Part shown: in pieces, positions 350-40,482 of the stretch | Layout: each line of letters opens with the position of its first letter | Position numbering within the stretch: the first letter of the stretch is position 1 | Assembly (NCBI GenBank): GCA_021739635.1 | Contig: JAIPBH010000019.1 | Coordinates: 1 to 40,482 of the forward strand | Reading direction: 5' to 3' | Origin: Flavobacteriaceae bacterium | GTDB lineage: Bacteria > Bacteroidota > Bacteroidia > Flavobacteriales > Flavobacteriaceae | DNA length: 40,482 nucleotides | Notes under the pieces: model-generated | The model's input: the letters and a program-made list of their open reading frames with translations, nothing else | Database searches by the model: none | Told to the model about the DNA's origin: nothing | Position numbers and translations under genes: made by a program

Positions 350-1606
350 ATGAGCAAGGTTAGCTTTTTTTTGAGGGACCCAATTGCAACTTTTAACAGT
401 AGCATTCATCTGGTATGTCATTTTAATGGAAAACGCATCAAAATGAGTACTGAGCTAAGTATCAAACCAACCATGTGGATACAAAACTCCATGAGGGCCC
501 GTATACACGCAACTTTTAAAGAGGCTAAAGACATCAATGAAAAATTAGACAAGTATGAAGCAGCCGTCAATAAAATCATTTACGATTTAAAGGAAAAGAA
601 TCTGTCCGTATCAAAAGCTGATTTCAAGGAGCGTATTCATAGAGAAGTTCTTTTAAACAGTTATACAAAGGATGGTAAATCATTCTGGTTCTATTATGAC
701 GAATTTGTAGAACATCAGAAACTTCATTTCTGCCCGTCAATATATAAAGATTATAACAACTCTCTTAGAAAACATTTAACCACTGTAGAAACCCTGTATG
801 AGACCAGTATAACCTTTTCTTCGTTAAAACAATCCTCTGATAGCTTATTCCATAAGTTTTATAATTACCTGGCCTATGAAGCTCTTAATAAAGATGGAGA
901 AAAAGGGTTAGCTATAAATACTATTGGTAAAAACGTGAAATGCTTAAAAGCCTTTCTTCACTTCTGTTTTGACCGTGACATCTGTATTCCATTCTCTTTA
1001 AAACACATGGTGGTTGAACAAATTGACACAGACACCGTTTATCTTACAGAAGACGAAATAAAAAAACTTTTTGAACTCAAGAAATTAAACGCCAAGGAGA
1101 AAATAGTGAGAGACCTTTTTATTATTGGTTGTGAAACGGGTATGCGGTATTCCAACTTTACTAAGCTACAAAAAGACAATTATCAATCTGGAAATCTGGT
1201 GTTTTCACAAGTTAAATCTACAGGACTGAAATCTAAAATAATCATTCCTTTAAGTCAAAACCATAAAGCCATAGCGGAATCATATAACTATGAACTTCCA
1301 AATCCAAATATCACTTGTTTTGAATTTAATCAAACTATTCGCAGTCTTTGTAAAGATGCAGGAATGACCAATAAAATTTTAATTCAGAAGTTAACCAAAA
1401 AGAATACAACTAATATTAGTTACGAAAAACACCTACTGGTCTCCTCTCATACTGCCCGTCGCTCCTTTTGCACCAATAAGTTCTTAAATGGTATGCCTGT
1501 ACCCGCCATTATGAAATTCTCGGGACATAAAACGGAACGCTCTTTTATGAAATACCTAAAATTGGATGCTGAGATTACTGCTCTAAAATTCAAAGAGTAT
1601 TTTTAA
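350..1606 (+). CDS. int: tyrosine recombinase / integrase
   Basis: Site-specific recombinase of 418 aa, a normal length for Bacteroidota integrases with an arm-binding N-terminus, a SAM-like core-binding domain and a catalytic domain. Catalytic residues are visible: Arg266 in GCETGMRYSN, His367 and Arg370 in SHTARRSF, His393 in SGHKTERS, and the nucleophile Tyr402 in MKYLKL. It should catalyse integration and excision between the terminal direct repeats, probably at a tRNA 3' end. The start at 350 is supported by the TATATTTG box 15 bp upstream. It is the only recombinase in the window, so it presumably serves both the whole island and the internal end copy at 32 kb. No excisionase is recognised, although a broken ribbon-helix-helix gene at the right end could once have served. 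Confidence 0.95.
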   Translation: MSKVSFFLRDPIATFNSSIHLVCHFNGKRIKMSTELSIKPTMWIQNSMRARIHATFKEAKDINEKLDKYEAAVNKIIYDLKEKNLSVSKADFKERIHREVLLNSYTKDGKSFWFYYDEFVEHQKLHFCPSIYKDYNNSLRKHLTTVETLYETSITFSSLKQSSDSLFHKFYNYLAYEALNKDGEKGLAINTIGKNVKCLKAFLHFCFDRDICIPFSLKHMVVEQIDTDTVYLTEDEIKKLFELKKLNAKEKIVRDLFIIGCETGMRYSNFTKLQKDNYQSGNLVFSQVKSTGLKSKIIIPLSQNHKAIAESYNYELPNPNITCFEFNQTIRSLCKDAGMTNKILIQKLTKKNTTNISYEKHLLVSSHTARRSFCTNKFLNGMPVPAIMKFSGHKTERSFMKYLKLDAEITALKFKEYF

Positions 1607-30295: not shown

Positions 30296-30759
30296 TTCTC
30301 TAAAATACTAAGTAAACTTTATTTTATTTTTCTAAATAATAATTTATTTTTTATTTAATAAAGATTATTAAATTATTGATATTATATCCTCTAATTTGTT
30401 TGTCTTATTTTTAGAATAATATTAAGTTCCAATATTAAAATTATTATTAAAAACCTCAATTGTGTTCTTAATAAAATATGATAAAACCATATTGATGATT
30501 TTTCTATAATTATTATTCATTTCCACTACGTGAACAAAAAAGTATATTCCGTGATTTTACTGCATACATCCAATATTTAAATCAGTTAATTTATAATATA
30601 ATTCACCGAATAAAACAATCCATGTTAATCCGTTGTTCTACAATATGCATTCAAAGGTTAATATGCCTTAGAAAAAACAATATTTTATTATAAAATATAA
30701 ATTGTTATTTTTCCTTTAAAGACTATTATTTCCTATATAAAAACTAAATACACATTCTT
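30296..30759. other. gene-free AT-rich stretch upstream of the histidine kinase
   Basis: No open frame of note. It should contain the promoter of the two-component operon. Diverged monomers of the adjacent array seem to begin around 30535 (TATTCCGTGATTTTACTGCAT). Confidence 0.5.
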
Positions 30760-31850
30760 TCATGGTTTATCGATAATTAATATACCTTTTACACACCGTA
30801 ACTAAAAAAGCGTTAGTTCGGAATTTTACCGTAGTATAAACCACTAGTTCCATACGGTAATTTATTATACTGTTTGCTATATAAAAATTAACCATATTAA
30901 CCCTGTATTTTCCATCTATGTTTTTAAATATAAATCCACCGAAAAATGTTCGTGATTTATCTATAATTAATATATCCGTTTTACCGCATAACAAAAAAAG
31001 TGATTATTCGTGATTTTACCATATAAACTATGCGTTTTTGATAAAATCAAATATATGTAAGTTCGTGGTTTATCGATAATTAATATACCCTTTACACACC
31101 GTAACTAAAAAAGCGTTAGTTCGGAATTTTACCGTAGTATAAACCACTAGTTCCATACGGTAATTTTTTATACTGTTTGCTATATAAAAATTAACCATAT
31201 TAACCCTTTATTTTTCAACAATGCTTTTAAATATAAATCCACCGAAAAATGTTCGTGATTTTACCGTATAAACCATGCGTTGCTCAACGATAATTTATTA
31301 TAATATTCGCTAAATAAAAGTAATTAGTATTAACACAATACTTTTCTACGCTTTTTATATATGAATACCCTCGAAGAACATCCATTATTTTAGTACAATA
31401 GATAAAATTTAATTCTTCCTTTAAAAACCGTTAGTTTTTGATAAAACTAAATATATGTGAGTTTGTGGTTTATCGTTAAATAATATACCTTTTATACATC
31501 GTAACCAATAAAGCGTTAGTTCTTGTTTTTACCTTACAAACCATGTGTTTCCCCAAGCTTATTAATTATAACATTCTCTAAATAAAAGTGATTAGTATTA
31601 ACCCTATGCTTTTTAATCAGGAATCCCACCAAAGAACATGAATTATTTTATTATAAAAAAGATAAAATTTTATTATAATAGCGGAAAAAAAGTAATTTGT
31701 ATTAACGCTATGATTTTCTACGCTTTTTATATATGAATCTCCCCGAAGAACAATCAATTATTTTATTACAAAAGATAAAATATTACATCATATTGGTGGT
31801 AATTTAATGCCAATATTAATACCCCTTTGCTTTTCAACCAAAAGCAGCAA
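30760..31850. repeat. non-coding array of diverged tandem repeats
   Basis: Two long copies of one unit start at GTTTATCGATAATTAATATA (30765 and 31068, a 303-bp step), followed in both by CACACCGTAACTAAAAAAGC, TTACCGTAGTATAAACCA, ATACGGTAATTT and ACTGTTTGCTATATAAAA. A degenerate third copy starts near 31468 (GTTTATCGTTAAATAATATA). Inside are smaller monomers of about 100 bp of the form ATTAACCCTATGCTTTT...ATATGAAT...CGAAGAACAT (near 30895, 31195, 31325, 31595, 31695). TACCGTA/TACGGTA pairs inside make hairpins. No frame is conserved, so this is not coding. Confidence 0.8.
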
Positions 31851-32025
31851 TTAATAAAATTTATAGTTTTTCAAAAATCAAGAACCAAAAAATAACTTTA
31901 AAGTTATTTTAAAGAATAATTTTTATTTTATAAAATAAAAATTTGAATGCCATAAAAATTTTAAAAGAATTGATTATACTGAACTACCCAAAAAATGGAC
32001 AAGTTTAAAAATAAAATATATTAAG

Positions 32026-32033
32026 TATATTTG
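32026..32033 (+). promoter_or_regulatory. -7 box of the RNA candidate, internal copy
   Basis: TATATTTG fits TAnnTTTG and is conserved in the other copy (40145-40152), 5 bp before the outer arm of the hairpin structure. No open frame follows. Confidence 0.5.
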
Positions 32034-32038
32034 AATAG

Positions 32039-32096
32039 TTGTCTGTAGATTGAAGTATTGATTAAAAATTTAGCTGTTCAGGCTAAAAAAAGACAA
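32039..32096 (+). ncRNA. hairpin RNA candidate, internal copy
   Basis: An outer pair TTGTCT (32039-32044) with AGACAA (32091-32096) encloses an inner hairpin TTTAGC-TGTTCAG-GCTAAA (32069-32087). The copy at 40158-40215 keeps both stems. With a promoter box just upstream, a short structured transcript is plausible. In this copy it would run on into the attachment-repeat hairpin ACTTC/GAAGT and then a T-run (32139-32153), which could end it. No known RNA family is recognised. Confidence 0.4.
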
Positions 32097-32129
32097 TCAG
32101 CCAACACAACTTCTTTGAAGTGCTAAAAA
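32096..32129. repeat. internal partial attachment repeat
   Basis: 34 bp identical to 56-89 of the left repeat and 40409-40442 of the right repeat, including the ACTTC/GAAGT inverted repeat. The match ends at 32130. Its position right after a right-end copy marks an old junction between two elements. It also narrows the functional att core to within these 34 bp, if it was made by recombination. Confidence 0.75.
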
Positions 32130-32206: not shown

Positions 32207-32575
32207 TTAATCCTCAAAACTATTCATAACCTCACGGTACTTTTTAGATGAATACGGTTTATGGCTTTCATAAAAATCTTCATCGGTAAGGTAATCAGGG
32301 TGTTTTATATCAATATAATATTCCTCAGCCCAATTTCTTGTAACATTAAATTCGTCACCATCAATTATTAGGTTAACTGTCATGGTTCCAATCCAGATAT
32401 CATTCCCATTTTCGTTTTTAATGTATTTATCCGTTCCTATAACTTCTATTTTTTCTGGCATCAAGTTGAAATCAATTAAGAAATCATCCATAATAGCTTC
32501 TTCAAGCCCTTTGGCTGAGCCTTCTATCAGACCAAATAAATAATCAACAACAAATTTTTTAAATTTTATTTCCAT
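32207..32575 (-). CDS. unknown acidic protein
   Basis: The 122-aa product is acidic (many Asp and Glu), with no signal peptide, membrane helix or motif I recognise. It contains GNDIWIGTMTVNLIIDGDEF, a likely beta hairpin. It starts 14 bp after the stop of the 190-aa gene upstream, so the two form an operon behind the operator at 33207. Size and acidity would fit an immunity or inhibitor protein, but that is only a suggestion. Confidence 0.65.
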   Translation of the reverse strand: MEIKFKKFVVDYLFGLIEGSAKGLEEAIMDDFLIDFNLMPEKIEVIGTDKYIKNENGNDIWIGTMTVNLIIDGDEFNVTRNWAEEYYIDIKHPDYLTDEDFYESHKPYSSKKYREVMNSFED

Positions 32576-32589
32576 TTCATTATGAGTTA

Positions 32590-33162
32590 TTAAATAATTT
32601 TAAAAGTTGGGTCCTTTTGTTCAAGAAAAGATTCTATTTCCGTTTTGTTCTCATAGTAAATAATGAGAATGGAAAGAGCAAACGCTGGTAGCAAAGCAGA
32701 AGGAACCAATTCACTTAAAAGCATCATGTCTAGGCCCTCCATAACAATTTGATGCACATCGGTTTCAATAATAAAAAACTCAGAAAAAGATTCTGTTAGC
32801 TTATCCCATTTTGGGGCAATTAAAATGTTAGTTCCAAGTTTTTCCATGTATGTAGGACGAAAGTCTTCAAAAGTACTTTCCCACTTTAAAAAATCTGTAG
32901 AGTTTTTATGCCTTTTCCCCCAATATTGCTTTTGATACCTAAAATAATGGACTCCTAGATTATGAATCATATTGACTTGCTCCATGGGGAATTTTGAATC
33001 AGAAAACTCCTTGAATAATTTAAAATTTTCCTCTGGATTGGTTTCTAGGTTATGATTGAAATAGGTTGTGAACTCTTCGGCAAAACCCTCATACCTATTA
33101 TCAAATAGAATTTGAAAGTATGGTATTTTTAAAAAAAAGGATGGTCGTAATGGAAGTTTCAT
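32590..33162 (-). CDS. unknown 190-aa protein, paralogue A
   Basis: The product is a paralogue of the one at 34156-34728 along its full length: both begin MKLPLRP, share IPYFxxLFxxRxEGFxExF, NPExNFKLF, NLGVxYxRYQKxYWGKR and LLPAFALSIL, and end in KDPTxKII. The shared start sets ATG at 33162; the open frame runs on to 33411 but that part is the upstream regulatory region and a pseudogene. No known domain is recognised; the pattern of Trp and aromatic residues suggests a compact helical fold. An operator and a -7 box (33189-33196) precede it. Confidence 0.75.
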   Translation of the reverse strand: MKLPLRPSFFLKIPYFQILFDNRYEGFAEEFTTYFNHNLETNPEENFKLFKEFSDSKFPMEQVNMIHNLGVHYFRYQKQYWGKRHKNSTDFLKWESTFEDFRPTYMEKLGTNILIAPKWDKLTESFSEFFIIETDVHQIVMEGLDMMLLSELVPSALLPAFALSILIIYYENKTEIESFLEQKDPTFKII

Positions 33163-33188
33163 ACGAGTTTTATAGTTTAATAATGGCG

Positions 33189-33223
33189 CAAAGCTAAACC
33201 CTAACCTAGACAAATATTGTCTA
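33189..33223 (-). promoter_or_regulatory. WYL-regulon promoter/operator A
   Basis: The palindrome TAGACAAATATTGTCTA (33207-33223) lies exactly 10 bp upstream of a minus-strand -7 box TAGCTTTG (33189-33196). The same spacing is found at operators B and C. It drives the 190-aa/122-aa operon. Confidence 0.75.
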
Positions 33224-33270
33224 TCATAAATTAAGATTTTATATCTTAATACAAACTCAGACCAAGCTTT

Positions 33271-33348
33271 ATGGCAACTTGCCCAGCAATAGAAGGTCAA
33301 GAGATTATAAAGGAATACATCAATGGCATATACAGAACAAAAAACTAA
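33271..33348 (+). pseudogene. truncated 5' end of a second WYL regulator gene
   Basis: The 25 codons read MATCPAIEGQEIIKEYINGI YRTKN then stop. The intact regulator at 35147 begins MANYPTIERQEIIKDYINGI YRTKK. DNA similarity covers about 170 bp (33176-33345 versus 35052-35221), including the operator and the divergent promoter. The module of operator, divergent regulator and 190-aa gene was therefore duplicated, and this regulator copy was cut off. Confidence 0.85.
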
Positions 33349-33638
33349 ATCGTTTAAACCTGACCCCAAAAAGAGGTTTAGGATACCATAACTGGAGATT
33401 TCGATGGACACTTAAAATTGCACGAAGAAAATAATCCTAAAGAATGATGGTCATGAACCGTTTAAAATATTTGAAACAAGAGCTCAAGAAAATTAGTAAA
33501 GTCTAACCTTCTTTTTTAGGTACGGAAGAGGGAAATTAAATTCTTAGTTGGGATTTGTTGATATGGACTATTATTTAGCAAAAGAATTTACAGATGATTT
33601 GCCTTTTTAGTGCTTTATTACACAATATTGTTTCTTTT
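33349..33638. other. decayed stretch without an intact gene
   Basis: Short interrupted frames only. It follows the truncated regulator copy and precedes the end of the 171-aa gene, so it is probably the scar of the deletion that removed the rest of the duplicate. I cannot assign the fragments. Confidence 0.5.
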
Positions 33639-34154
33639 TTATTTTAAGTTATCAATAGAGTAGGATTTTATATAGCCATAATTAATCTGTATTGTAGGTG
33701 TAATATTTATACCCTCTTCTTTTTCTAAGCTTCTGGTCAACGGAATGCCATTTAACCAATTTACGGTTTCATAATTATCTTCAGCTAAATAAAGAATGCT
33801 TCCTGGCTCAAAAGATTCTTGGGCAAACGTATGATTTTCCTTGTTTACTTCCTTAATTACCTTAAATACTTTGGGAAATATCTTGTACACATTTAAAAAA
33901 TTTCCTGAACTATCAAATTCCACCCAAAGTTTGAAATGGTGCCTTACAATAACAAGTAATGCTGGTAAATCTTGTTCTAGGTAATTATAGGAAATATAAT
34001 CTTCTTCAAAATATAAGCCACGAAAATAGCCATCAAGCAGATAATTGAGCCTGTCCTTTGTGATAACATAATTTAATCTTTCCCCAAATTTTATTGGCCT
34101 TCTTTTATTTTTGTCTTTTGATAGTTCTTTCTGGAATTGTTCAAATGGTGTCAT
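33639..34154 (-). CDS. unknown 171-aa protein
   Basis: A cytoplasmic-looking protein with no signal peptide or membrane helix. The N-terminus is basic (SKDKNKRRPIKFGERLNYVI) and the middle beta-rich (LLVIVRHHFKLWVEFDSSGNF). I do not recognise the family. It starts 1 bp after the stop of paralogue B and so is the third gene of the 94-aa/190-aa/171-aa operon. Paralogue A has the unrelated 122-aa gene in the same position. Confidence 0.68.
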   Translation of the reverse strand: MTPFEQFQKELSKDKNKRRPIKFGERLNYVITKDRLNYLLDGYFRGLYFEEDYISYNYLEQDLPALLVIVRHHFKLWVEFDSSGNFLNVYKIFPKVFKVIKEVNKENHTFAQESFEPGSILYLAEDNYETVNWLNGIPLTRSLEKEEGINITPTIQINYGYIKSYSIDNLK

Positions 34155-34155
34155 T

Positions 34156-34728
34156 CTATATGATTTTATAAGTTGGGTCTTTTGTTTCTAGAAAATCTTC
34201 TATTTCAATTTTGTGTTTATAATAAACAACAAGAATGGATAAGGCAAATGCGGGCAATAACTCTCTTGGAACGGTTTCGTCCAAAAACATCATGTCAAAT
34301 CCATTTATTATATATGCATTGAAATCAGGTTCCGCAATAATGAATCTAGAATAACTTTCGGTTAGTTTTTCCCATTGAGGACCAATTAAAATATTGGCAT
34401 CAAAGGATTCATTATATGTTGGGAGCAAGGTTTTGAAGCTTTCTTCCCAAACAAGAAAATTATATGTACTATCGGGTCTTTTACCCCAATAGTTCTTTTG
34501 GTACCTATAATAGAAAACACCAAGATTATTAATGATTATCTTTCTTTCTAAATCGGTTTCTGATTGATAGAGGTCTAAAAATAATTTAAAGTTGTCTTCA
34601 GGATTAGTCTCCAGTACATGGTTAAAGTAGGTTGCGAAATCTTCCTCAAAACCTTCAAATCTGGAGTTGAACAACACTTCAAAATATGGAATTTTCATTA
34701 AGTATGTTGGACGTAAGGGTAGTTTCAT
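34156..34728 (-). CDS. unknown 190-aa protein, paralogue B
   Basis: Full-length paralogue of the product at 32590-33162, with the same first residues MKLPLRP and last residues KDPTYKII; the match fixes the start at 34728, 27 bp inside the longest open frame. Conserved blocks include YWGKR, a central LIGPQWEKLTESYS and AFALSILVVYY. No domain is recognised. It is 10 bp after the 94-aa gene and 1 bp before the 171-aa gene. Duplicated copies with different downstream partners resemble the pattern of polymorphic effector or immunity sets; this is inference. Confidence 0.75.
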   Translation of the reverse strand: MKLPLRPTYLMKIPYFEVLFNSRFEGFEEDFATYFNHVLETNPEDNFKLFLDLYQSETDLERKIIINNLGVFYYRYQKNYWGKRPDSTYNFLVWEESFKTLLPTYNESFDANILIGPQWEKLTESYSRFIIAEPDFNAYIINGFDMMFLDETVPRELLPAFALSILVVYYKHKIEIEDFLETKDPTYKII

Positions 34729-34738
34729 ATGGGTTATA

Positions 34739-35023
34739 TTATTTACAAATTTCAATTTGGATTTTTTTTAAGGAATAATTGGAAAGGTGTTTTTTAATTG
34801 AGATAAAAAACTTTTCTTCATTTAATAAGTGTTTTTTAAGTTCACTTTTCGGGTTTTCCAAAGTGAGGATACTTTTTTTAAAATTGCCATTAGGATAATA
34901 GTAAGTGATGAGAAACCATCTTTTATATTTTGGTAACTCTTTAATAAATTGTTGGTAGTTGCTGATGGAACTGCCTCTGTTTAATTTTAGCTCAAAAGTT
35001 TGTTCAATTTTAAGTGTTGCCAT
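34739..35023 (-). CDS. unknown 94-aa protein
   Basis: The product (MATLKIEQTFELKLNRGSS at the N-terminus, ending KIQIEICK) is short, basic and predicted alpha/beta. I chose ATG at 35023; an in-frame start at 35089 would begin inside the operator and upstream of the expected transcript start. The gene is absent from the duplicated module A, where the 190-aa gene directly follows the promoter region. Function unknown. Confidence 0.62.
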   Translation of the reverse strand: MATLKIEQTFELKLNRGSSISNYQQFIKELPKYKRWFLITYYYPNGNFKKSILTLENPKSELKKHLLNEEKFFISIKKHLSNYSLKKIQIEICK

Positions 35024-35064
35024 GGAATTTTGAATAATAAATGGTTTATAATTTAATAATGGCG

Positions 35065-35100
35065 CAAAGCTAAAACCAAACATAGACAAATGTTGTCTAT
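35065..35100 (-). promoter_or_regulatory. WYL-regulon promoter/operator B
   Basis: ATAGACAAATGTTGTCTAT (35082-35100) has perfect 8-bp arms and a 3-bp centre. A minus-strand -7 box TAGCTTTG (35065-35072) lies 10 bp from the 17-bp core. The site lies between the divergent 94-aa gene and the WYL gene (start 35147), so the regulator probably controls both directions. Confidence 0.8.
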
Positions 35101-35146
35101 CATAAATGAATATTTCTTATCTTAGTACAAACTCAGACTAAGCTTT

Positions 35147-36073
35147 ATGGCAAATTACCCAACAATTGAACGTCAGGAAATTATCAAAGATTACATCAAT
35201 GGTATATACCGAACAAAAAAAGAAATCATACAACGGCTTAAAGAGTCAGATTTAGGCGTAGTACCTAAAACTGTAGAACGTGATTTAAAATTTCTTAAAA
35301 ACCAAGGTTATGAGATAGAATATATTCGTGGAAGTGGATATATTTTGAAACACTCTGAAGAATTTGTAAGCGAGTTATTGAATAGAATTAAAAAGGTGTC
35401 AAAACTCAAAAAAACTATGGATGATAAAACAGGATTATCTGAATATATTTTAGATAATTCTGTACAAATGGAAGGTATAGATTTGATTCCTGAGATATTT
35501 AAGGGACTTGAAGAAAAAAGGTATATAGAATTTGTTCACACAAAACATGGTTCACAAACATCCAAAGATTACAAAGTTATTCCGTTGTGGTTAAAAGAAT
35601 ATGATGATTATTGGTATATAATTGCCTTACCAATTGGAGAAAAAATAGTGAAATCATTTGGCTTAGACAGGATAAAACATTTAAAGCTTATGAATCTTTA
35701 CGATGAATCACTTATCACAGAAGATATTACAGAACAAATAGATAATTATAATTATCGCCTTGGGGTTAGTTATCCAACGTTTCGTGAAAATCCCAAAAGA
35801 GAAATTATAAAACTGGCTGTATCTGATTTTCTATTACCCTATTGGAAAAGTAAACCTGTTCATCAAACACAACGGATAACAAATGAAAAAATCGAAACAA
35901 AAATTCAAAATAAATTAAAAGGGTATACTATGGTGTACTTTACTTTAATTCCAAATTTGGATTTAATAAAATTAATAGTTTCAGGGGTTGGAGACATTAA
36001 GTTGATTGAACCAAAACACTTAAAGGCATTTATTCAAAAAGAGTATAAAGGGCTGATGAAGGATATATTTTGA
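35147..36073 (+). CDS. WYL-domain transcriptional regulator
   Basis: The 308-aa protein has an N-terminal winged helix (about 5-68): ERQEIIKDYI, then KKEIIQRL and VPKTVERDLKFLKNQGYEI as the recognition region, with a wing near RGSGYIL. The WYL ligand-binding domain follows (about 118-185), with YIEFVH, a core YWYIIALP in place of the classic WYL triad, and SFGLDRIKHL. A C-terminal extension (200-308) is typical of the dimeric defence-associated regulators such as BrxR and CapW. It is encoded beside operator B, and two further identical palindromes lie at 33207 and 39606, so it probably controls all three operons, sensing nucleic acid or a nucleotide. Confidence 0.9.
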   Translation: MANYPTIERQEIIKDYINGIYRTKKEIIQRLKESDLGVVPKTVERDLKFLKNQGYEIEYIRGSGYILKHSEEFVSELLNRIKKVSKLKKTMDDKTGLSEYILDNSVQMEGIDLIPEIFKGLEEKRYIEFVHTKHGSQTSKDYKVIPLWLKEYDDYWYIIALPIGEKIVKSFGLDRIKHLKLMNLYDESLITEDITEQIDNYNYRLGVSYPTFRENPKREIIKLAVSDFLLPYWKSKPVHQTQRITNEKIETKIQNKLKGYTMVYFTLIPNLDLIKLIVSGVGDIKLIEPKHLKAFIQKEYKGLMKDIF

Positions 36074-36083
36074 TTTAATTTGA

Positions 36084-37358
36084 CTAATCTTCCAATGGAT
36101 ATATAATATTTTTATCTATTAAAAACTGAATACATTCATCATGTGTTGGGAATTTAGTTTTATATTTTTCTTTAGTACCAGATTTTGTATTGCCTTCTTC
36201 CCAATTCAATTCGTGAGAACCTAATAATTTTTTCAAATCTTCACTTGCACACAGCCAACCTTTAAAATCTACATATCCTACTTTTTCCCCCTTTTTTTTG
36301 GAGTCTTTCTTTATATATAGTCCTCTATATTCTTTCTTTTTAATAGGATGGAAAGGTGGTTTAGGAACATTACTATTAATTACATTAGGTTGATTGCGTG
36401 TTAAAGGAATATTATTTTCTCTTTGTATATTATTGTTACTTTTATTTTTTTTTGAAACTTTATTTTGGGATGTTTCAGTTTTGATTAATTTTTCCTTTTT
36501 AGCTTTTTTTGATAACTTTAAACCCTTGGTTAATCCCCATTCTGTATATTCATTTCTTGGATTGTATAAATTATTCTTTTTTGAAACTGTTCTATCTGTT
36601 CCAAAAAGTTTCTCTTCCAATTCAATTACATTAATTTTATTTTCCAAGGCTAATTTCTGCATATACTTGATATAGGATTCATATGCCAAAGGTTTTTTTC
36701 TTTTTAAGGTGCCATCAAATAAATTTTTATTTTTACCCCCATTACACCTATAATAACTGTCGTAAACAAGAGTATTATTATTTATAGTGCCATCTATTGC
36801 GCACCATGCCATACTTAACCATTTGTCTAATATTAAATATGTTTGTTTTTTTGGAACTAATGCTTCTCTGTAAAAGAAAAATAATTTTGTAAAATATGGA
36901 TAATCAATTCCAGGAATTTTAAAAGCTTCTATACCGTCTTTAAACTCCGTTTTCCCTGGGATTTTATGCTTTTTTGTTTTTGGGTCTTTATATCTTTTTG
37001 AAAATTTTTTGAATAAATCTGAAGGTGAGTCTGAGTCAATTATTTCTTTTTTGGCAAAATTCATGAAATCATCAAAAATACCACTATTAATGAATTTCAA
37101 AAGAGAATTTTTTGCGTTTTTTTTTGCTGATAAAAAAAAGACACCCCAAAATAATATTGCTAAAAATTCAGTTTTATTATTATATTTTTTATTTCTAATA
37201 AGTTCAATTACTTCACTCTTACTTATTTGATTTTTGTTGATTAAAAAATTGGGTAGTTGTCCATAATCCTTTTCATAATCTTTATTATATCTCTTCTTTT
37301 GTTCCTCAATGTTAAAAGAAGATGGAAAATCTGGTGATTCTAAGATTTGTTCTATCAT
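36084..37358 (-). CDS. OGG/HhH-GPD-like DNA glycosylase candidate
   Basis: The 424-aa protein has a helical N-terminal domain and, at 148-180, IPGIDYPYFTKLFFFYRE followed by YLILDKW. The order of hairpin-like IPGI, a Lys (K158) and an Asp (D178) recalls the helix-hairpin-helix/GPD region of OGG1-type glycosylases, where Lys and Asp are catalytic. Residues about 285-340 are low-complexity Lys/Asn, and the last 80 form a separate domain ending in IQFLIDKNIIYPLED. It starts 6 bp after the nuclease stop codon, so both act in one operon. Removal of modified bases from phage DNA, with cleavage by the partner, is a hypothesis; the family match is by eye. Confidence 0.6.
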   Translation of the reverse strand: MIEQILESPDFPSSFNIEEQKKRYNKDYEKDYGQLPNFLINKNQISKSEVIELIRNKKYNNKTEFLAILFWGVFFLSAKKNAKNSLLKFINSGIFDDFMNFAKKEIIDSDSPSDLFKKFSKRYKDPKTKKHKIPGKTEFKDGIEAFKIPGIDYPYFTKLFFFYREALVPKKQTYLILDKWLSMAWCAIDGTINNNTLVYDSYYRCNGGKNKNLFDGTLKRKKPLAYESYIKYMQKLALENKINVIELEEKLFGTDRTVSKKNNLYNPRNEYTEWGLTKGLKLSKKAKKEKLIKTETSQNKVSKKNKSNNNIQRENNIPLTRNQPNVINSNVPKPPFHPIKKKEYRGLYIKKDSKKKGEKVGYVDFKGWLCASEDLKKLLGSHELNWEEGNTKSGTKEKYKTKFPTHDECIQFLIDKNIIYPLED

Positions 37359-37364
37359 GTGTTT

Positions 37365-39323
37365 TTATTTAATAGTAATTATTTCTTTTAAATGCTCATA
37401 AATCATCACCATAGCTAAGGTATCTAATTCACAGTATTTAAGCAAGGCTTGTTCAATTTTATTACGCTCTAAATCAGTCATATCTGAATACTGCGTCAAT
37501 CCATAAGCGGTCATAGCTGCTCCACCATTATTGATATCCTCAATATCGCTCACTCTTTCAAAAGTATCATCCCAATCTTTGAATGGTTTATCCAATGATT
37601 TATAAGGGTCGATAACTTCACCATTTTCTATTTTAAGCCAGACTTTATCTGGTTTAAAATTAAATGAGCTAAGTTCAATTTCATTAATTGGTTGCGTATA
37701 TTTAGTTCTTATAAATTCGCTAGTTTTAAAGGTTGCTGGTAAAATATCTTTGATGGAGTTGCTGCCTTTTGCGTAAGGATTATAGTAATAAGCTTTAATT
37801 ACTTCACATAGGTCTACCATACCTCTTGTTGGCGCCCATAGTTCACCATTATAATCTTTACTCTTTGGAGGCGTAGTAATTGATTTAATAAAGTCTATTA
37901 ATTCAACTCTATCTTGTTCACCAGATTGTTCTAATTGTACTTTAACCTGATTTAGTGTGGTATTTTCATAGGGTGAAAATTGAAAAATGGTACCATTATT
38001 TTGTTCCAATGCTAATTTCAATTTTCTAACAAACTCAAAGTTTGGAAACTCCCCAGCTTTTATGTTGATATATTCATTGGCGTGTTCGACTTTGCCGTCT
38101 TCTTGATATATATGGTGTGAAAACTGAAAAACAACCTTTTCATAAGGATGCTGACCAGAATAAAAAGGTAATGGAGATGTTGAAGCTTCAAAATCAATAA
38201 AGTTCAGTGGAAACTTCCAAGTGTCCATTTCAGCTTTCAATTCAGGGATTAAAGTATGAGGTTCATAATCATTTACTAAAGCTTTATGCTTTTGAGTAAG
38301 CTGTCTTCCAACTCTTGACATTTTACCGTCTTCATCTTTAATCTCCCCAAATAATTCGTCATCAATATCTTCAAGCTTGATTATACTCTTATCATTAAGA
38401 TGCTTCCATCGTCTGAAATCCCAAATTTCAAATGCAGTTGGGTCTTTAAAATCATCTTCATTCCAACCTAATTTCCTAGTAAAGCATTCTTTCACTCCAG
38501 ACTTTAAGTTCTCATTATCATCCTTTGTTCTAAATTCACATTTTTTGCAGATTTGAAAGTTTAAATCATAATCAAAATAACGGTTTTCCTCATAAGTTTT
38601 AGCCAAGACTTGAATTGAGTTTTCAAAAGTAAATTTATCCAATATTCTATATTCGCTCAACTCTATTTTTTTGATTATATCAGAAACATCAATCAATGAC
38701 AAAACCGATTGTTTTTCAGGATTATCAAGTTTATGTATTTTTAATTCTATCCCAGTACGATTATCAGATGTTTTAGAAACTCTGAATAGCTGATTTAAAC
38801 CAGCTATCGTTGTTGTCTTATCCTTATCAGCCAACATTAAAAAAGGTTTTACAATAAACTGAGGAAATGCCTTTTCAATAACATATTTCTGAAAAGCCAC
38901 ATCGAATAAATAGAATTTCCAATCAGAATTATACTTTACATCATCTTTTCTAAAGGATTTAGCCTTTACCTCAATCAAATTGATTTGGTCACCTTTTTTT
39001 TCTAAAATATCAACTCTTATAAATAGGTTTTTAAACATGAAAGCCGCTTCAAAAATCACAACATTATCATGTTCTAACAATTTTGAAGTTTGATTCACCT
39101 TTTCTTCATAATCATAGCGGTCATCAGAATTTTTATCTTCAATAAGGTTACCATCAGGATAATGTAATCGGGCCAATTCCTCTACTTGAAAGCCACCTGA
39201 AGCAAGTGCTTGTAAAAAAGGGTCTTCTTGCTTTTGATTAGCGTACTCCTTTTTACTGGTGTAAAATAGTTTGTTGGGACATTCTAGCCCAAGTTTGTAG
39301 CGTGATTTAGAAAGTACTCTCAT
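37365..39323 (-). CDS. RecB-like nuclease fused to DEDD exonuclease domain (DUF2779)
   Basis: The 652-aa protein joins two nuclease folds. The first has PD-(D/E)xK residues Asp105 (RVDIL), Glu118 and Lys120 (LIEVKAK) and Gln145, plus Cys15, Cys259, Cys262 and Cys280 placed as in the Fe-S nucleases AddB and Cas4. The second, from about 370, is the DUF2779/TM0106-like RNase H-fold: FIDFEA (Asp377, Glu379), MVDLCEVIKAYYY (Asp504) and CELDTLAMV (Asp634) fit a DEDD 3'-5' exonuclease. It probably degrades DNA. It is preceded by a 68-aa membrane protein and followed 6 bp later by the glycosylase-like gene, behind operator C. Confidence 0.82.
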   Translation of the reverse strand: MRVLSKSRYKLGLECPNKLFYTSKKEYANQKQEDPFLQALASGGFQVEELARLHYPDGNLIEDKNSDDRYDYEEKVNQTSKLLEHDNVVIFEAAFMFKNLFIRVDILEKKGDQINLIEVKAKSFRKDDVKYNSDWKFYLFDVAFQKYVIEKAFPQFIVKPFLMLADKDKTTTIAGLNQLFRVSKTSDNRTGIELKIHKLDNPEKQSVLSLIDVSDIIKKIELSEYRILDKFTFENSIQVLAKTYEENRYFDYDLNFQICKKCEFRTKDDNENLKSGVKECFTRKLGWNEDDFKDPTAFEIWDFRRWKHLNDKSIIKLEDIDDELFGEIKDEDGKMSRVGRQLTQKHKALVNDYEPHTLIPELKAEMDTWKFPLNFIDFEASTSPLPFYSGQHPYEKVVFQFSHHIYQEDGKVEHANEYINIKAGEFPNFEFVRKLKLALEQNNGTIFQFSPYENTTLNQVKVQLEQSGEQDRVELIDFIKSITTPPKSKDYNGELWAPTRGMVDLCEVIKAYYYNPYAKGSNSIKDILPATFKTSEFIRTKYTQPINEIELSSFNFKPDKVWLKIENGEVIDPYKSLDKPFKDWDDTFERVSDIEDINNGGAAMTAYGLTQYSDMTDLERNKIEQALLKYCELDTLAMVMIYEHLKEIITIK

Positions 39324-39364
39324 TGAAGTTCTAATTTAATTATTTAAGTTGAGTTAACTTTAAA

Positions 39365-39571
39365 TTATGATTGTTGTTTTAATAATTCTTTCACCAAGAA
39401 ATAGCAGATGCTACAAAATAGTATGGGCCAGAGTAAAATTACCAGATGTGGACTAACATCTTTGTCATTATCTTTAACCTCATTATAGGTCTGAATTTTA
39501 TCTAATTCAGAAATTGCGTAGTTAAGTAAAAGACCAAAAATTAAGTAGGTGATTATAAAATATAGAGCCAT
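39365..39571 (-). CDS. small two-helix membrane protein
   Basis: The 68-aa product has two hydrophobic helices (about 2-20 and 43-62) joined by a charged loop (ELDKIQTYNEVKDNDKDVSP). The start codon lies 16 bp after the -7 box of operator C, so it is the first gene of the operon that leads to the double nuclease, 41 bp downstream. No family is recognised. A membrane-linked sensor or an effector that depolarises the cell are both possible roles. Confidence 0.65.
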   Translation of the reverse strand: MALYFIITYLIFGLLLNYAISELDKIQTYNEVKDNDKDVSPHLVILLWPILFCSICYFLVKELLKQQS

Positions 39572-39587
39572 GATGTATAATTTGTCA

Positions 39588-39622
39588 CAAAGGTAAAGAC
39601 CAAATTAGACAAATATTGTCTA
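39588..39622 (-). promoter_or_regulatory. WYL-regulon promoter/operator C
   Basis: TAGACAAATATTGTCTA (39606-39622) is identical to operator A. A minus-strand -7 box TACCTTTG (39588-39595) lies exactly 10 bp away. It controls the membrane protein/nuclease/glycosylase-like operon. Confidence 0.78.
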
Positions 39623-39753: not shown

Positions 39754-40031
39754 ATGGAACAAAACAATAACAATCGTACAATAAATATTTTGTGCAAAAA
39801 TAACGACCCAAGAAAAAATAAGATTTAATGAGATTGCTAATTCACATAGTATAAGTACCTCTGAATGGGTTGCTAGCATTTTAAATATTTATCAAAATGG
39901 TTACCGAAGTAATAAACTAACTCCTGAACGAGAACAAGAACTATTAGCTAAAATTGACAAACTAGAGAAACAAGTTGAACGATTAAAGGGTTTAAATAAA
40001 GAAATGAATGATGCACAAAAATTATTTTAAA
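39754..40031 (+). pseudogene. frameshifted ribbon-helix-helix protein gene
   Basis: The ATG frame reads MEQNNNNRTINILCKNND and stops after 24 codons. Shifting by one base at about 39790 (TTTTGTGCAAAA) restores a frame to 40031: AKITTQEKIRFNEIANSHSI, then STSEWVASILNIYQNGY and a coiled-coil tail. The RTINI strand plus two helices is the ribbon-helix-helix pattern of small DNA-binding proteins such as MobC-like or excisionase-like factors. The stop codon falls inside the right-end repeat. Either a true frameshift or a sequencing error in the short T-run explains it. Confidence 0.65.
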
Positions 40032-40144
40032 GAATAATTTTTATTTTATAAAATAAAAATTCACAGAATCTAATATTTTAAATCAATTGAATAATACTGA
40101 ACTACTCAAAAAATGGACAAGTTTTAAAAATAAAATATATTAAG

Positions 40145-40152
40145 TATATTTG
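40145..40152 (+). promoter_or_regulatory. -7 box of the RNA candidate, terminal copy
   Basis: TATATTTG, same distance from the hairpin arms as in the internal copy at 32026. Confidence 0.5.
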
Positions 40153-40157
40153 AATAG

Positions 40158-40215
40158 TTGTCTGTTGATTGAAGTATTGATTAAAAATTTAGCTGTTCAG
40201 GCTAAAAAAAGACAA
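40158..40215 (+). ncRNA. hairpin RNA candidate, terminal copy
   Basis: TTGTCT (40158-40163) pairs with AGACAA (40210-40215), around TTTAGC-TGTTCAG-GCTAAA (40188-40206). The sequence between differs from the internal copy only slightly, and both stems are unchanged. No terminator as clear as that of the internal copy follows, so this copy could also simply be a protein-binding site. Confidence 0.4.
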
Positions 40216-40286
40216 TAAGTTCTTCTAAATAAAAAAATAACGGTTCCGAATTATTTTTAAAAATAATAATTATTTTTTGTTACATA

Positions 40287-40353: not shown

Positions 40354-40482
40354 AAGGAAAGCTTTCCATCGGTTTAACTACTTAAACCACTGATATACAA
40401 CTACATATATCAGCCAACACAACTTCTTTGAAGTGCTAAAAAAAGCCCTATTTTACAGAGCCTTTTTATGCAATTTGCGGTC
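40354..40482. repeat. attR: right copy of the long terminal direct repeat
   Basis: All 129 bp are identical to 1-129. The last bases, TGCGGTC, are the start of the tRNA-like 3' end on the minus strand; the complete tRNA should continue to the right of the window. The repeat may extend past the edge. Confidence 0.9.

Follow-up and report, generated by a model that had tools for sequence, protein, structure and literature searches.

WYL-domain regulators control phage-defence loci such as BREX (bacteriophage exclusion) under BrxR and CBASS (cyclic oligonucleotide-based anti-phage signalling system) under CapW, in which an inverted-repeat operator lies near the controlled genes in a defence-island setting (PMC9122601, PMC10693628; these and the other papers below are cited from parts of their text). 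Base removal combined with lyase nicking is a possible mode of attack in the PabI-family base-excision restriction enzymes, which have the HALFPIPE fold (PMC10273834), and putative DNA glycosylases in a defence setting are represented by Brig1 and Brig3. Here we describe a locus of nine genes at 32207-39622 of a 40,482-base stretch of DNA from a Flavobacteriaceae bacterium (the window), which is one entire contig (JAIPBH010000019.1) of a 3.36-Mb genome in 29 contigs. The locus consists of a WYL regulator gene and three operons, the main one encoding a 68-residue protein, a DUF2779 protein and a 424-residue protein resembling 8-oxoguanine DNA glycosylase (OGG). With a probability of roughly 0.55, it represents a WYL-repressed module directed against phages (or mobile DNA) and carried on an integrative element.

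The locus shares the regulator, the type of operator and the island setting with the BREX and CBASS loci, but none of their effectors was recognised among its proteins. The reading as a plain BREX locus was rejected because PADLOC, applied to the nine locus proteins (the remaining element proteins were scanned with Pfam), found no brx core genes and recognised only the WYL protein. The BrxR boxes consist of 11-bp repeats spaced by 5 bp (PMC9122601), whereas the present operator has 6-bp arms around a 5-bp spacer. The only Pfam match of the 424-residue protein at E up to 1 was PF21790 (“putative 8-oxoguanine DNA glycosylase OGG-like”), which sets it apart from PabI. It also has a nuclease as its operon partner, while Brig1 and the later relative Brig3 belong, in the parts of the literature consulted, with the uracil-DNA-glycosylase superfamily. 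That superfamily gave no Pfam match at E up to 1, and the reading as a Brig homologue was therefore rejected; Brig1, which the earlier note had invoked as a precedent, is tied to a group other than OGG. Recent surveys of BREX-related and YprA-helicase systems did not mention DUF2779, glycosylase or OGG in their main texts, and literature searches found no paper on PF21790, an OGG fold or OGG-like, and none combining the WYL domain with DUF2779. In agreement with the earlier note, neither PADLOC nor the literature yielded a described system with this gene set.

The three operons are joined by one promoter architecture, TAGACA-N5-TGTCTA-N10-TAnnTTTG, which occurs in three copies, each preceding one operon and one of them divergent from the WYL gene. 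The features on which the argument depends are as follows.

39588 to 39622, minus strand: operator and promoter 1, exact match, in front of the main operon
35065 to 35099, minus strand: operator and promoter 2, between the WYL gene and the operon of the 116-, 199- and 171-residue frames
33189 to 33223, minus strand: operator and promoter 3, exact match
33271 to 33348, plus strand: remnant of the WYL-gene start from the promoter-region duplication, with a remnant ATG at 33271
35147 to 36073, plus strand: WYL-domain transcriptional regulator (PF13280, 5.4e-8, 33.2 bits, cut-off 21.8)
39365 to 39571, minus strand: 68-residue protein with two hydrophobic stretches, read from hydropathy only
37365 to 39323, minus strand: DUF2779 nuclease (PF11074, 2.5e-21), with a Cas4/RecB-like PD-(D/E)XK part and a DEDD 3'-5' exonuclease-like part
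36084 to 37358, minus strand: OGG-like putative DNA glycosylase (PF21790, 2.1e-5), with K158, D178 and an extra C-terminal region

The 17-bp palindrome TAGACAAATNTTGTCTA was found exactly at 33207-33223, 35083-35099 and 39606-39622. The bare palindrome, without the tail, is not very rare at three mismatches, with six matches (three sites on both strands) against 1.5 expected and six reached in 2 of 100 shuffles. Adding the tail N10-TAnnTTTG left three exact matches in the window, every one on the minus strand. When up to three mismatches were allowed, five matches stood against 0.09 expected, two of the five being second readings of these palindromes on the plus strand, and none of 100 shuffles reached five. 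The shared promoter architecture and the divergent WYL gene that had been proposed from the sequence were thereby borne out, and the pattern was conserved across genera. Gene order and reading frames also lay where they had been placed, apart from two starts: the longest frames 32590-33411 (273 residues) and 34739-35089 (116 residues) extend into their own operators and therefore likely start later, at 33162 and at about 35023. The start of the 199-residue frame is likely at 34728. Promoter 3 is part of a 183-base duplication (repeat D4), which also copied the start of the WYL gene.

Across 397 family genomes, the exact 35-base operator pattern occurred in three, at five sites, and the reversed-pattern control gave none. 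Three of the sites are in the window, one in Muriicola and one in Robiginitalea aurantiaca M39, and all of them are in loci with the present WYL lineage. Searching 84,980 species returned 15 matches, and a WYL profile found its gene in the tiles of Muriicola and Robiginitalea and in none of the other 13, which were set aside since neither the surroundings nor the profile showed such a WYL gene; five of these 13 fall in one gene, presumably murC. No match was found in viral contigs.

In Muriicola jejuensis KCTC 22299 (Flavobacteriaceae, G182, locus L018), the WYL gene, whose product is 35% identical to that of the window, faces a divergent operon of two NT5C genes, a two-helix protein of 61 residues (33% identical to that of the window), an OGG relative, a 162-residue protein without a family and a DUF2779 protein (6e-47). 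The gap between WYL gene and operon contains TAGACATGATTTGTCTA-N10-TAAGTTTG, the architecture seen in the window, and a tRNA-Met and a tyrosine integrase lie beyond the WYL gene on the side away from the operon. Nuclease and OGG relative thus occur together, with the WYL and two-helix genes, under the same operator in another genus, a recurrence that the earlier note had set as a check; the OGG gene was not found in two of the four regulator loci. A DndB-like gene (L018:12864-14138, DNA phosphorothioation-associated, 6.6e-17) is convergent with the Muriicola DUF2779 gene.

In Robiginitalea aurantiaca M39 (G717, L040), the WYL gene faces an operon with two NT5C relatives, a 73-residue two-helix protein and unknown genes, in which a relative of the 171-residue protein of the window (5e-28), a NADAR protein (2e-22) and a PD-(D/E)XK nuclease (PDDEXK_1, 1.5e-14) were also found. 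The exact operator is located between the two NT5C-like genes, and a half-site with the same N10-TAGATTTG stands in front of the first. This operon ties the 171-residue protein of the second window operon to the same system. In the NT5C pairs of both loci (L018:8702-9169, L040:9867-10325), the DxD motif lacks its first Asp in the first copy (NID and SID versus DMD and DLD) and retains it in the second, giving an active-inactive nucleotidase pair under a WYL operator.

At E up to 1e-20, a profile built from the three regulators of the window, Muriicola and Robiginitalea gave 26 matches in 24 of 378 family genomes. The three regulators from which it was built scored 552, 538 and 475 bits, the next, from G071, 204 bits, and the rest 121 or less. 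In G071 (L084) the WYL gene is divergent from an operon of a 68-residue two-helix protein (1e-22), a 190-residue protein (9e-108), the DUF2779 protein closest to that of the window, a 232-residue protein and a 124-residue protein (2e-63 to the 122-residue protein of the window), and the locus adjoins a tRNA-Asn. Its operator, TGGACGTTATTTGTCCA-N10-TAATGTTG, has both arms changed together, with length and spacing kept and one mismatch in the -7 box. Since this single operon holds relatives of both the main and the third operon of the window, those two operons belong to one system, and the three window operons look like one regulon. All four loci lie on or near an integrase or tRNA gene: an integrase and tRNA-Asp in the window, an integrase and tRNA-Met in L018, tRNA-Asn in L084 and, in L040, an integrase about 6 kb from the WYL gene. 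Among the 23 of 26 WYL neighbourhoods that were read, eight contained DUF2779 and four a two-helix match, the profile for the latter having been built from those four. Since one of the window promoters clearly arose by duplication and repeats bracket the locus, the operons could be unrelated island genes that share a promoter by duplication only, but the same families stand under the same type of operator in other genera, and the G071 operon unites the 190- and 124-residue relatives with the nuclease and the small protein, which makes such a chance assembly very improbable.

The small two-helix protein is shared among the loci. Relatives of the 68-residue protein were found in Muriicola (L018:9668-9853, phmmer 5e-7) and G071 (L084:9273-9479, 1e-22), with a WP motif conserved in the window, L018 and L084 and a position either first in the operon or directly after NT5C. 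These two features would also suit an abortive-infection device, in which the two-helix protein would be the killer, acting through a membrane pore, with the nuclease, OGG-like and NT5C proteins serving to sense or control. The membrane role, however, is drawn from hydropathy, and the active sites of the nuclease are intact, so that we consider a device of this kind quite unlikely.

The nuclease of the window scored 76.7 bits with PF11074, above the cut-off of 23.3. The DUF2779 family has been placed among RNase H-like 3'-5' exonucleases, and its DUF83 domain has been noted to resemble PD-(D/E)XK nucleases (PMC3985635). In an alignment of 30 of 31 DUF2779 proteins, including that of the window (one truncated copy of 209 residues was excluded), D105, E118 and K120 of the first part and D377, E379, D504, Y630 and D634 of the second were invariant in all 30. 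The window protein thus keeps the residues of both the PD-(D/E)XK and the DEDD active site. NCBIfam gave UU173_fam at 3e-7, far below cut-off; no PDB match was found at E up to 1, and the nuclease was not found in viral contigs.

The 424-residue protein was called a glycosylase on the basis of the Pfam OGG match, which is below the cut-off in the window and strong in Muriicola (1.6e-19, 70.8 bits). K158 and D178 were kept in 8 of 8 aligned OGG relatives, that of the window included; like D105 and D377 of the nuclease, they had been picked out in the earlier note as key residues, and all four proved conserved. Sequence searches with the window protein as query returned only that protein itself from 299 family genomes and nothing from plasmids, phages or viral contigs. 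The Pfam OGG search of the same 299 genomes matched seven including the window, four above cut-off, and a profile search across the order (395 genomes) added two weak partial matches, in G345 and G583, whose stretches contained no WYL, DUF2779 or two-helix match. The matches of G118 and G127, without the lysine and below cut-off, were excluded from the count of settings. Five OGG sequences searched as a profile against the PDB gave no match at E up to 1.

Eight OGG relatives share the Lys and Asp; two belong to the present system (window and Muriicola), and of the six others, four lie beside or near genes that we read as recognisable defence genes. Among the six, those in L016 and L017 adjoin HsdR of type I restriction systems, another is carried by a Streptomyces plasmid with type I-E cas genes nearby, and a further one comes from a viral contig; the chromosomal copy in L019 has no clear partner, with an AAA_21 ATPase gene about 4 kb away. 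In L016 (627-2815) the OGG gene is flanked by a reverse-transcriptase gene and the type I HsdR gene. On a Vibrio echinoideorum plasmid (NZ_AP025485.1, L106:7142-9191), the relative immediately follows a nuclease with an AbaSI-family annotation (DUF559 above cut-off; a PvuRts1I-like match, 1.3e-5, below it), with two WYL genes near. AbaSI and PvuRts1I enzymes cleave modified-cytosine DNA, and this makes the Vibrio pair the strongest hint of modified bases; it is possibly a two-gene system against modified DNA.

These data are best read as a mobile nuclease module that is switched by a WYL regulator and whose DNA-attacking parts can be exchanged. Its constant core is best explained as the switch, the small two-helix protein and a RecB/Cas4-type nuclease, with the glycosylase, the NT5C pair, NADAR and others as exchangeable parts. 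Observed directly were a single regulator lineage, an operator whose spacing is fixed, a small protein common to the loci, a nuclease with intact active sites and a mobile defence island; from these genes we infer the defence role itself. A WYL dimer would bind TAGACA-N5-TGTCTA, located just upstream of the -7 box, and would keep the three promoters off. It may be released by a nucleic-acid signal from infection or DNA damage, in the way that single-stranded DNA acts on some WYL proteins; PafBC, DriD and SiwR are WYL regulators that bind single-stranded DNA after damage (PMC10693628). The OGG-like protein would then excise a base that is probably modified and may use K158 to nick the resulting abasic site; the Cas4-like/DEDD nuclease would resect foreign DNA from the nick, and the two-helix protein may be a membrane anchor of the complex or a last-resort membrane effector. 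More tentatively, and at well under even odds, the locus may be a new type of immune system with a WYL/small-membrane-protein chassis, one version of which carries an OGG (helix-hairpin-helix) restriction glycosylase that removes a modified phage base and passes the abasic site to the Cas4-like/DEDD nuclease.

The same damage-sensing WYL regulators fit a DNA-damage response operon of the element, in which a WYL protein sensing single-stranded DNA induces base-excision and exonuclease repair of the element's own or the cell's DNA instead of immunity. A glycosylase and an exonuclease are indeed a repair parts list, and NT5C and NADAR in the sister loci would fit nucleotide clean-up. Repair of this kind agrees poorly with the sporadic occurrence (1 of 3 listed genus genomes; 4 of 378 family genomes with the close WYL lineage), with the location on integrative elements together with restriction-modification and Abi-like genes and with the swapping of the enzymatic parts between loci, and we regard it as unlikely.

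Several observations weigh against the module as read here. Only four loci are known, the module is seen in its genes and its presumed activity is read from them, and genes for DNA damage are also under WYL regulators (PMC10693628). The G071 and Robiginitalea loci gave no OGG match, which argues against base removal plus degradation, the joint activity proposed initially, as the common denominator. The PF21790 score of the window protein (24.8 bits) is under the curated cut-off of 27 bits, and its AlphaFold2 model, from a three-row alignment, had a mean predicted local distance difference test (pLDDT) score of only 37.7. The pairwise search missed the two-helix protein of Robiginitalea, which was recognised only from its position, size and hydropathy and with a profile that included it. 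DUF2779 occurred at 28 places, in 25 of 199 family genomes, and 21 of these places had no WYL gene of the present family within the stretch read (up to about 8 kb on either side), a count that other kinds of WYL would escape. In eight plasmid DUF2779 stretches, opened from 28 records, WYL was next to DUF2779 in only two (Aliarcobacter butzleri and Rhodoferax antarcticus), and no OGG or two-helix match was found in any. The plasmid DUF2779 proteins closest by identity, in Prosthecochloris and Comamonas, were accompanied by neither WYL nor an OGG or two-helix match. DUF2779 therefore also works elsewhere.

The other seven DUF2779 places did have such a WYL gene, against a chance expectation of about 0.0003 per place by our own arithmetic (26 WYL matches in 378 genomes of roughly 3.4 Mb). 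In five further family genomes (L085, L089, L090, L092, L096) the WYL and DUF2779 genes are adjacent or one gene apart, and a PDDEXK_4 nuclease is close to them in four of the five (all except L089) and on the Aliarcobacter butzleri plasmid. These sets resemble the present locus in having WYL near DUF2779 and differ from it in that no two-helix or OGG match was found within the stretches read and PDDEXK_4 is mostly close by. WYL, DUF2779 and PDDEXK_4 (L027, L085, L090, L092 and L096; family genomes and the Aliarcobacter plasmid) apparently form a wider, undescribed nuclease set. NT5C genes also lie near DUF2779 in L141 and L147, but they were not assigned to the present system, as no WYL or two-helix match accompanied them.

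The carrier of the locus was examined through the contig ends, the integrase and the internal repeats.

1 to 129: left end of the element, repeated without change at 40354-40482 and present at the ends of two other contigs of the genome, one at a tRNA-Asp
40354 to 40482: right end of the element, identical to the left end over 129 bases
350 to 1606, plus strand: tyrosine integrase of the element (PF00589, 5.3e-11)
32004 to 32129, plus strand: internal repeat copy (97-bp D6, 34-bp D13), with copies at 40123-40219 and 40409-40442

The match to other contigs covers 139 bases at the end of one of them and likewise 139 at the start of a second, the site of a tRNA-Asp(GTC) gene. Judged from these shared contig ends, the window is most simply one integrative element of 40.5 kb at tRNA-Asp. 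Its other cargo includes HsdS, HsdM and HsdR of a type I restriction-modification system, an AbiJ-like ATPase, an AbiEii-like nucleotidyltransferase, a Schlafen-type helicase, a UvrD helicase, RNase H and GIY-YIG proteins. This mobile element with its restriction and Abi-like genes supports the defence role proposed in the earlier note, whose interpretation as a whole was supported in part. The 8.3-kb WYL cassette is bracketed by the D6/D13 repeats, one of which also lies within the element ends, and this suggests that the cassette joined the island as one unit; searched as DNA in plasmids, it gave no match.

If the module is what we propose, a group of defence glycosylases outside the uracil-glycosylase superfamily of Brig1 and Brig3 would be added, the uncharacterised DUF2779 nucleases would gain a role, and the very specific operator would allow further members of the regulon to be sought by the DNA pattern alone. 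A single regulator lineage with a constant operator and small protein and a varying enzymatic cargo would amount to a modular immune chassis.

The second and third operons encode the following proteins.

34739 to 35089, minus strand: first open reading frame of the second operon, likely start about 35023
34156 to 34728, minus strand: 190-residue protein, function unassigned, 59% identical to the paralogue at 32590-33162; G071 relative 7e-78
33639 to 34154, minus strand: 171-residue protein, with relatives in the Robiginitalea operon (5e-28) and in L147 (3e-24)
32590 to 33162, minus strand: 190-residue paralogue, whose relative is second in the G071 operon (phmmer 9e-108)
32207 to 32575, minus strand: 122-residue protein, whose relative is last in the G071 operon (phmmer 2e-63)

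The 116-residue frame had no relative in the stretches compared. Pfam gave no match above cut-off for the six locus proteins other than the WYL, DUF2779 and OGG-like proteins, and PHROGs gave only weak matches of unknown function for the window proteins. An AlphaFold model of the 190-residue protein from a two-row alignment had a pLDDT of 40.7. The WYL protein also had an HTH_11 match (4.4e-4) below the cut-off of that family, and the WYL profile gave three matches in the PDB, the best at 5e-5. In L147 (2530-4006), the relative of the 171-residue protein overlaps an HNH nuclease gene (HNH, 6e-8), and the two are likely a two-gene unit. Between the two-component genes and the WYL cassette, the window contains an AT-rich intergenic array of diverged direct repeats of 95 to 219 bases (30719-31763), and between the cassette and the right end of the element a remnant reading frame was seen by eye (39757-40030).

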